Origin: Glomus cerebriforme
Lineage: Eukaryota; Glomeromycota; Glomeromycetes; Glomerales; Glomeraceae
NCBI GenBank assembly: GCA_003550305.1
Contig: QKYT01000130.1
Coordinates: forward strand, 85,960-149,959
DNA: 64,000 nt
Reading direction: 5' to 3'
Shown: piece by piece, positions 51,180 through 55,003 of the stretch
Layout of the letters: every line of letters starts with the position of its first letter
Numbering within the stretch: position 1 is the stretch's first letter
Made by a program: the position numbers and the translations under genes
The notes under the pieces: model-generated
What the model was told of the DNA's origin: nothing
Seen by the model: the letters and a program-made list of their open reading frames with translations, nothing else
The model's database searches: none

Positions 51180-54100
51180 TTATTTTCTATACATAACTCC
51201 ACGTCTACTTCCATTAATAGGAGGACTTTGTGGCCGAGAACTAGAATTTCCCCCGTGATCACTAGTGGCACTAGCATTACTTGCAGCACTCAACCGTCTT
51301 TTAGGCTGATTCGTTGGTACCCCACTAGTACCGGATCCTCCTTTATGGTCACTGCTATGAGCATTATTTCCAATATACTTGCTTGTTGATAAATGAGTTG
51401 ATGGTGACAAATTTGAGGTTTGTTGCGAGGGAAAAGTTGATTTGTCGCGATGATCACGATCACGATCTCGACCACGTCGATTTCGCGCCAACTGACTATT
51501 TGAATGTCCAGATTGAAGGGCTAACATTAAGCAGAAATTAAGTAAGAAATAATATCAAAATTACTAAAAAGGAAGTAATCAAATTTTTCAGATGAGATTA
51601 ATCACCTTGTTTACGTGTCTTTTCATGTTTTGTCTGTACGGCTCTGAAATGAGCCAAAAGATCTTGGAATTTTATGCCATCTTCTTTTGTAGGTATTGCT
51701 TTTGTTGTTGAACGCTTAGTATCTGCCGTGGGCGTGCTTGTCGAATAAAAATATTATATAAATTTTTTAAAATATATTTAATAAACAGCTGAATTAAATA
51801 CTTAATATATTTGTAATATGATACCTTTTTGGTATCAAATGTAAAAATCCCATTGATGAAACACTAGTCAACCGATTTTTTAAACTGGCAAAAGCACTAC
51901 TCTGTGGTAAAAGCATTAATAAACCATAAAGACATTTAAAAAGATATGGATATTTTTCTGGTTCAAGAAGTTGCAAACGAAGATCTATAAATTTGCAAAA
52001 TTATGTTAAGGTCCCATGATAAATAAATTTGAAATACAAAAATTTAAAATCAATAAATAGTTACATGTAAATACTGGTGATTCTATTAATTGAACAAGCT
52101 TATCAATCTGAATAAGAAGATTTACAGTTATATCCAAATCGGCACTAATATAACAAAAAAGAACGCCAGACAAAAATTTAACCATATAATACATTCAATA
52201 AAAAAAAAAATAAAAAATACTAAATTATTAATACATTACAAGCTTTGTAACAAATTTGCTGCATGTTCGTACGCCTGTGCTAGTAAACACAATGAAAATG
52301 TAGAAACAGGATTATGACACCAAGATTTGTATAAAGCAGTAAACAACATTTGTCCGTCTTTTGTTTCAAGATTTTTAAGTCGTTTTCGCAGATCAGAAAG
52401 TTCAGGAGTAGTAATAAGAATGCTATTAAGATTTTGTACCATATTGGAAGCAAACTCTATATCCTATTTGTTATAATAATATATTAAATAAGCGACAAGA
52501 AAAAATAATAAGGAAGATAATATATACTGATAAAGACCTCCTCCCTTTCCAATATTTCCGCAAAGGTACGATAAATTCTTTCTGAATTAAGACTTGAACA
52601 TAAGTGCCGAATAATCAAGCTACCTCTTGACTCTAATAACCGTCGATCAGTACTAAACAACTTTAACAAATCGACCATAAAACGCGTAAAGAATTCATCT
52701 TCCGAACTAGAAGATAATTGTGCAAGAAGTTGAAGATCTCGTCTTACGACCTAATTATATCAAAAATACACAATCAATTACAAAGCACTAAAAAAAATAT
52801 CAAATAAATAATAATTCAAACCTCCTCTGATAAATCTGAGAGAGTTTTTAACAATACTGGAAAAGTACCATCGTCAATTGCAAGAATCTACGAAGTTGAA
52901 CATTTGTTTAAGTTGAATAGTATAAATGGTTTAATGTTAATGTTAATCAGACCAAACCTTTTTTGGTGCTTTTTTATGCAACATTAAAAGCCAATCCAAA
53001 CTCGCAACCCTTGTTTCTTCATGCTCATTTTTAAACTGATGTACCAAAGCCTTAACAGTTTCCTGGTAATCAAATGGATCTGCTTGTTCATAAATTAAAG
53101 GTAGTGTATTAATACTATTGTGTTCTTTATTAATTCCCATATGCATTAAAAGAACAGAAGAATCCACAGGTGAAATAGATGATAAATGTGCAGATGAATA
53201 TGGAGGCGATTGAAGAGATGGGACTGTATTAGTTGGAGTTTCAAGAATCAATTTATATAGGTTCCGATTCACTTCCACTGCAACCGTTCTGATAGGTAAA
53301 CAACCTGTCAAGGACATTAATAAGAAATATTAAATGAATGCCTTATAATCTAATAAATAATAAATAAAGGATATGTGCAACTGAATGAGCTAATGAAGGC
53401 AAGACGGCGCTTATAAGCTGTGGTGTAAAGACAATTATGACATCTTTGGCGAGTGATATAAATTCGTTTATCCATTTTAATGCAGTTGCCTGTATTTCTT
53501 CCTCTGATAGAGGAATAATATAAACATAAGTAAAAATTAAAAAAAAAGGAAAGATTAATAAATTAAATATAAGAGAAACATACCATGTGAAGACAAATGA
53601 GGCATTAAAATTTCAACAATTCGAGTATAATTAATGACAACCCCTTGACCAGGTACCCAAGAACCTTTGCCCCTTCCTTCCGTTTCGCTTATCGAAACTG
53701 TATCCCAGTTAATATCCCCATCAGATGAATTAATAGACGATTTCACTAGTGTAGCGTCATCACCATCACCTTCCTTTATACTTTCACCTGCATCACTAGC
53801 AGTTTCAGATAGTTTTTGTTGTTGTTCAACAAAATAAGTTTTCATTGATTGCTGCTTTTGATGCTCCTTAACTTCAACTGCCTCGCGTATCTCGGCTAAA
53901 AAATTCGCAAGAACTGTTGAGGTTGCATATTTAACATCATTTGGATCACTTAAAAATTGCAAAAGGCCGTCCAAGAAGTCCGGCAAAAATGATACAAGCT
54001 CAAGATCTGGTATTGAATCAAGTACAGTAATCCATGATACTAGAAAATTACGTGTAAATGGATTTTTCGCTCGGATACGTTCTGATAATAAAGGAATAAA

Positions 54101-55003
54101 TCTAGGTAATGAAAAGGCTGTTGTACGTGGCATTGAAACTGGTCCCATTGAATCATCATGTGATAGAGAAGGATGAGCTAAGATAGATACATATGTGGTA
54201 GATTGTTCTGCTACAATATCTTTAATTAGTCTATCCAGAAGCTCAGCACCATTTTTAACAGAAAGTTCAGAATCTGCAGCCAGCTATTATTAATGTTTGC
54301 GCATAAAGTGAGTAAGTATAATGTAAATTACACTTTGTACCTGATTAAATCATAAAATTTTGGAAGAAAGTAGGATTTACTTTGCTCATCGCATCAAATA
54401 CTTCATTGAAATATCGTAATATTTCTCCCTTTGAAACTTTCGCAATATTATACATGCTTTCACAAGCATAATATCTAACACGAGAATCTTGATCTGCGAA
54501 GCAAGCAAGAACTGGAGGGACAATTTCTTCCAAATATGCTGCTACATCCTAATTAATTTAATATAAACATCAATTAATGAAATTCAGACCATATATTATA
54601 ATACCATTCTAGTAAGTCTTACAGGGCCTAAAGCTATAGATGCGGCTGCCAATCCAATTAATCCTCCATTTCGCGCATTAGGATTTACTGAATACGCAAA
54701 ATCTTGAACAAGTTTATCTAGAATTGCTCGAACTCTTTCGGATTCCTTATTCGCAGAGTATTCACGAATAAGCCTAAGTATATTTAGAAAAACTTTAAAT
54801 ACTTATTCTCACAAGTTTTCCAAATAAATGCTAGGCTAATGTAATATGTCTTAACTCTTAAGAACACATTTATAACCGCAAAGTATTCGTAACACACTCA
54901 ATGCTTACTTTTCAACTTCTAATGCAGCAGCTTTACGTTTTTCATATGCTTTGTCATTAAGTCCTCGAACAATTTGAGCGCTCAGCACTAGGACGTCCGA
55001 CAT
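51180..55003 (-). CDS. VAC14: VAC14, scaffold of the Fab1/PIKfyve PI(3,5)P2 complex
   Basis: Thirteen exons (54909-55003, 54623-54773, 54381-54548, 53584-54283, 53375-53503, 52958-53295, 52822-52887, 52538-52750, 52240-52463, 52065-52144, 51825-51984, 51606-51736, 51180-51520) give 931 residues. HEAT-repeat text aligns along the human protein: [111 protein letters not shown] and [15 protein letters not shown]. The C-terminal 115 residues are low-complexity, rich in Ser, Arg, Asn and His. Vac14 holds Fab1 and the Fig4 phosphatase together on the vacuole. The intron at 53296-53374 is U12-type (AT-AC). The gene is divergent from UVRAG. Confidence 0.95.
53296..53374 (-). other. VAC14: U12-type AT-AC intron in VAC14
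   Basis: On the minus strand the 79-base intron starts ATATCCTTT (from 53374), matching the minor-spliceosome donor. It carries TCCTTGAC (53314-53307), matching the U12 branch site with the branch A at 53308, and ends AC at 53296, 12 bases further. No GT-AG alternative joins the two exons in frame. Splicing yields [17 protein letters not shown], aligning with the human LPCLAYDDRKKSIKEV region. Confidence 0.9.

Follow-up and report, generated by a model that had tools for sequence, protein, structure and literature searches.

VAC14 of Glomus cerebriforme, an arbuscular mycorrhizal fungus (AMF), lies on the minus strand of the window, the whole 64-kb stretch of DNA that was analysed. The gene and the parts of the intron considered here are listed below.

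51180..55003, minus: 13-exon VAC14 coding region (931 aa) with 11 GT-AG introns and a single AT-AC intron
53375..53503, minus: VAC14 exon 5, ending ...LAHSVA + C (from the spliced-product alignment)
53296..53374, minus: putative U12-type AT-AC intron, VAC14 intron 5, phase 1, 79 nt, whose spliced product equals P0001
53366..53374, minus: predicted 5' splice site ATATCCTTT, read from the sequence, able to pair over 9 nt with one U11 gene and over 6 nt with U6atac
53307..53314, minus: predicted branch site TCCTTGAC, read from the sequence, with the branch A at 53308, able to pair with U12
53296..53297, minus: 3' terminal AC, 12 nt from the branch A
52958..53295, minus: VAC14 exon 6, starting CT ATC AGA = P-I-R (from the spliced-product alignment)

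The first-pass annotation had called this gene a fungal VAC14, and Pfam comparison of the spliced product agreed: both the Fab1-binding HEAT region (Vac14_Fab1_bd, PF12755, E 5.4e-48) and the C-terminal Fig4-binding domain (Vac14_Fig4_bd, PF11916, E 4.1e-83, residues 586-763) were present. The Fab1/PIKfyve-Fig4 complex, which produces PI(3,5)P2, has VAC14 as its scaffold. The deposited Glomus cerebriforme protein P0001 is the spliced 931-aa product, residue for residue over its whole length; P0001 is itself a gene model.

Structure of the AT-AC intron

The predicted junction of exons 5 and 6 (53375/53295) reads ...GTTGCAC/CTATCAGAACG, so that codon 415 (C/CT, Pro) is split by the intron. The donor at 53374-53366 agrees with the U12-type consensus [AG]TATCCTTT, and the branch site at 53314-53307 agrees with TCCTTRAC, the U12-type consensus near the 3' end. 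U12-type introns are expected to end in AT-AC or GT-AG and to leave a correct product, and joining at the AT-AC termini gave the 931 aa of P0001. The match to the minor spliceosome that had been claimed for donor, branch site and AC acceptor was confirmed at each of these positions. A 251-base search of the genome with the intron site found no second copy. When the window was scanned for [AG]TATCCTT followed within 200 nt by CCTT[AG]A[CT], the VAC14 site was the sole match, and 4 other donor-like matches in the window were without such a branch.

If the intron were retained, the reading frame would continue for 10 intron-read residues and then stop, and VAC14 would end after residue 424. As this stop precedes the Fig4-binding domain, we infer that minor splicing should be needed to make VAC14 at full length.

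Intron 10 of the same gene (window 52064-51985) is a GT-AG intron with an ordinary donor. At 21-27 nt from its end stands a branch-like CCTTAAC, which may be fortuitous or may have been left over from a minor intron since converted.

Alternative junctions

Splice pairs around the intron were enumerated for GT-AG and GC-AG, and for AC ends with ATATCCT donors, using donors at 53500-53301, acceptors to about 53100, a length of at least 40 nt, a kept frame and no stop. No GT-AG pair in this range joined VAC14 exons 5 and 6 in an open frame, as had been claimed earlier. Nine GC-AG pairs kept an open frame, each with the loss of at least 9 aa. There were 5 AT-AC pairs, and full length was kept only by 53374/53296, the other four losing at least 36 aa.

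We considered whether a major-spliceosome GT-AG or GC-AG intron joins these exons, with the AT-AC motifs a coincidence. Some deposited models of relatives (e.g. P0004 and P0005) appear to join at other points, and the nine GC-AG pairs do leave the frame open; however, all of them remove residues, GT-AG pairs are lacking in the range enumerated, and splicing at AT-AC yields exactly P0001. The 16 residues at the junction, moreover, align without a gap in nearly all listed homologs from outside the Glomeromycotina, and a motif pair of this kind is expected by chance far less than once per window (both below). On the enumeration this join was rejected, and we regard it as extremely improbable.

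A minor-type intron might also have a different 3' end. An AT-AG variant, 53374/53305, lies outside that enumeration; at 70 nt it stays in frame and adds Arg-Cys-Leu to the protein. AT-AG minor introns exist, and the distance from branch A to 3' end in minor introns is normally about 10-14 nt, whereas this AG stands only 3 nt from the branch A. RCL is absent from P0001 and from all 120 homolog rows listed, although P0004 has a CLP reading. Spacing and the missing RCL led us to reject the AG at 53305, which is very unlikely to be the true end, and to keep the AC at 53296.

Minor-spliceosome components in the genome

The first-pass annotation took the intron to imply that the organism retains a minor spliceosome, and named the U11, U12, U4atac and U6atac RNAs and the 65K protein as what a genome search should look for. 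All four RNAs were found above the Rfam gathering cut-offs: U6atac at 77.2 bits (cut-off 33), U12 at 70.8 (53), U4atac at 55.9 (53, only just above) and U11 as two genes at 77.0 and 69.2 (39). None of 14 control genomes matched any of the four. The gathering-level Rfam scan of the 64-kb window itself returned 0 families. The two U11 genes are located as follows.

L004 1501-1646, minus: U11 gene
L005 1501-1644: U11 gene

One U11 gene, with the 5' end AAAGGGUGU, can base-pair along the full nine-base donor (two pairs being G-U), and the other pairs with eight of the nine. U6atac AAAGGA can pair with donor UCCUUU over 6 nt, and U12 GUAAGGA can pair with the 7 other branch-site bases while the A is bulged, with one G-U. 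These pairings bear on a further possibility, that the intron is a U2-type AT-AC intron removed by the major spliceosome. Such introns exist in animals, and they carry U2-like donors. The VAC14 intron has instead the U12 donor and branch consensus, with pairing possible to U11, U12 and U6atac of the same genome; the U2-type reading was rejected on its donor and branch, and we give it hardly any weight against a U12-type intron.

At the 5' end, where U11 would pair with the donor, one U11 gene reads UAAAAGGG and the other UACAAGGG; the latter loses one pair with ATATCCTTT. Upstream of the snRNA genes we noticed, by eye and without statistics, an element about 35-66 bases 5' of the predicted snRNA starts (L001, L002, L003, L005 and the reverse strand of L004): AATCCCATAA precedes U6atac, U12 and U4atac, and CAGTCCCACAAT precedes both U11 genes. 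An AT-rich, partly TATA-like stretch follows it. The shared sequence looks like a common snRNA promoter element.

Proteins specific to the minor spliceosome were represented by a 25K-type and a 65K-like match. The SNRNP25-type ubiquitin-like domain (PF18036, E 1.2e-11) was found at C229 in two pieces, one of which contains a stop, as expected for exons read unspliced. At C162, two RRM pieces in two reading frames were RNPC3-like (65K-like). The first-direction match was 28.3 bits, little above two other RRM matches (27.4 and 26.7). When the pieces were joined approximately, the two best solved structures were 'RNA-binding protein 40' (50 bits), which we take to be RNPC3, the 65K protein; the next natural proteins were RBM41-type entries at about 42 bits (structure 2cpx being, we assume, RBM41) and U1A at about 40 bits. 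A U11-48K-type zinc finger (zf-U11-48K) at C335 was ambiguous: an archaeal control also matched, and the finger is thus not specific to the minor spliceosome. PDCD7 searches gave 0 matches in this genome and likewise 0 in the 14 control genomes, which leaves the negative without weight. By sequence, the organism does encode minor-spliceosome RNAs, which supports the reading that it retains a minor spliceosome.

Other candidate minor introns

The pattern ATATCCTTT-N(40-70)-TCCTTRAC occurred 25 times in the 112.5-Mb genome, the VAC14 site included, vs 3 times for the reversed control pattern; this control puts the chance rate at 3 per genome, or about 0.002 per 64 kb. The GT version of the pattern occurred 14 times vs 0 in the control. 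At 15 of the 25 AT loci, AC was the first of the two dinucleotides AC and AG to appear 8-18 nt past the branch A; AG came first at 1 locus, and 9 loci had neither. AC thus came first more often than the background of 0.34 (15/25, p 0.007). Counting any AC whose end falls 9-14 nt past the branch A gave 14/25 loci vs a background of 0.25 (p 0.0008). Among the GT matches, two pairs were identical in sequence, and in the four of the 14 that were examined AG was first at 8-18 nt in none (0/4). These statistics argue that the AT pattern set carries a real signal, yet the 25 may include sites that are not introns.

Thirteen AT candidates, VAC14 among them, were joined at the predicted AC, and nine were run against Pfam, with two trimmed further at the upstream end. 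In two cases a domain above the cut-off spans the join, in a ChAPs gene (candidate intron L019, 1.1e-17) and in an MT-A70 methyltransferase gene (candidate intron L023, 5e-17). A Neurobeachin-type WD40 match (8.6e-12) also spans its join, under the curated cut-off. Beside the join, ion-channel and SHNi-TPR matches were above the cut-off and a DNA polymerase delta match was below it; 2 of the 9 gave no Pfam match. Candidate intron L011, near position 1501 of its locus, lies in an ion-channel-like gene with Ion_trans above the cut-off and EF-hand below, and the L019 and L023 candidates also lie near position 1501 of their loci. Animal voltage-gated channels are known minor-intron genes.

The junction in VAC14 models of relatives

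Homologs were drawn from 7993 scored proteins, of which 3103 passed the threshold; the 120 listed were all aligned. Besides P0001, 20 rows are, judging from their names, presumably other Glomeromycotina, and the other 99 include some metagenomic rows. Each exon junction was scored as intact when a 16-residue stretch across it was gapless in the pairwise alignment.

Among the Glomeromycotina rows listed, the AT-AC junction was intact in 4, broken in 12 and not assessable in 4 (12/16 broken), whereas among the rows listed from outside the group it was intact in 98/99 and broken in 1/99. That single broken row is probably the Mortierella row P0076. For these 20 rows, GT-AG junctions 2-4 and 6-10 gave 148 assessable cells, of which 14 were broken. 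Fisher tests gave p 2e-8 for the AT-AC junction against those GT-AG junctions and p 4e-12 against rows outside the group, values that overstate independence, as rows are related and annotation pipelines are shared.

Junctions 1, 11 and 12 were kept out of the GT-AG pool. Of the Glomeromycotina rows, 12/16 were broken at junction 12, which equals the AT-AC figure, and 8/18 at junction 11. Both junctions lie in a C-terminal region where the majority of rows from outside the group are broken as well (75/87 and 77/95), and breakage there therefore reflects divergence. Junction 1 was broken in 1/20 rows inside and 25/97 outside the Glomeromycotina, and junction 4, which was pooled, in 2/19 and 22/99. 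The four intact Glomeromycotina models (R. clarus, Gigaspora margarita, Paraglomus occultum and Acaulospora colombiana) may reflect correct annotation, intron loss or conversion.

Several broken models carry residues that fit read-through of the intron. Left unspliced, CATATCCTT with TA or TT after it would be translated as HIL[YF]. The Rhizophagus irregularis model P0002 reads LAHLVV-HILYTHIHVE and the Ambispora gerdemannii model LAHSIL-HILFALNIK, each with the insertion exactly at the AT-AC junction. HIL[FY] occurs 3 times in the 112,906 positions of the 120 listed proteins, twice at this junction and once elsewhere (P0017). P0002, the representative of its cluster, seems to read into the intron. 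PNILHM in Dentiscutata and PNILSY in Entrophospora would agree with AATATCCTT, although the I could also be a normal exon residue, and YCLPIK in the Funneliformis mosseae model agrees with the final TGTTTAC of the intron having been kept. Scans of genomic and viral contigs for VAC14 DNA of relatives gave 16 and 2 pattern matches, with 0 confirmed from relatives.

It is quite likely, from these protein footprints, that the AT-AC intron predates the split of Glomerales and Archaeosporales and was kept in most lineages, and that it is often mis-annotated: many AMF annotations would miss it, leaving VAC14, and probably the proteins of other minor-intron genes, truncated or garbled there. If this is true, counts of minor introns in the clade that rely on such annotations are underestimates.

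Interpretation

We conclude, with a probability of about 0.96, that Glomus cerebriforme VAC14 does carry a U12-type AT-AC intron at 53374-53296. This reading draws on the consensus motifs and their spacing, the identity to P0001, the lack of a GT-AG alternative in the range enumerated, the snRNAs and their pairing, and the motif count of 25 vs 3; the PF18036 and RNPC3-like matches, the ChAPs and MT-A70 joins and the R. irregularis precedent add to it. Following the established minor-spliceosome pathway, the donor would be recognised by U11 and the branch site by U12, after which U4atac/U6atac would take the place of U11 at the donor and the intron would be removed with AC as its 3' end. The motifs, the machinery genes and the protein match were observed, and the splicing steps are taken from that pathway.

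The analysis adds another glomeromycotan genome with, by sequence, a full minor snRNA set. It also points to a concrete cost, in that gene models of the Glomeromycotina, an ecologically important group, tend to break at the AT-AC intron. The junction test, in which the models of one clade are broken at one boundary and read-through residues spell out the AT donor, needs protein databases alone and could reveal unannotated minor introns.

Comparison with known systems

The minor introns of Rhizophagus irregularis were treated in a 2023 Nucleic Acids Res. paper, reportedly by Larue and Roy. That paper (PMC10639083) credits R. irregularis with 205 minor introns, with each of the four minor snRNAs and with orthologs of ZMAT5, RNPC3, SNRNP35 and SNRNP25; its minor introns have the phase order 1 > 2 > 0, and the genes that hold them are enriched for vesicle-mediated transport. 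The same paper describes certain pipelines as leaving minor introns unannotated, and minor introns as absent from Ascomycota and Basidiomycota (PMC10639083), in line with the loss in most Dikarya that the first-pass annotation had asserted. R. irregularis belongs to the same phylum as G. cerebriforme (Glomeromycota) and is described there with introns and machinery of this class; as its minor introns were already published, the surprise is smaller than first implied. The words 'VAC14' and 'cerebriforme' do not occur in the main text of PMC10639083. Because P0002 apparently reads into the intron, the VAC14 intron may be missing from model-based counts. In the literature searched, which covers the field in part and has introns.info outside its scope, VAC14 was not found named as a minor-intron gene.

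Mucoromycota likewise retain the minor spliceosome but have few minor introns, about 4 in Rhizopus oryzae and about 20 in Phycomyces according to figures cited in PMC10639083. In nearly all rows listed from Mucor, Phycomyces and Mortierella relatives, the VAC14 model is gapless through the site. For the Glomeromycota, retention of the minor spliceosome was already known, and the VAC14 AT-AC intron is a further example of known glomeromycotan minor introns.
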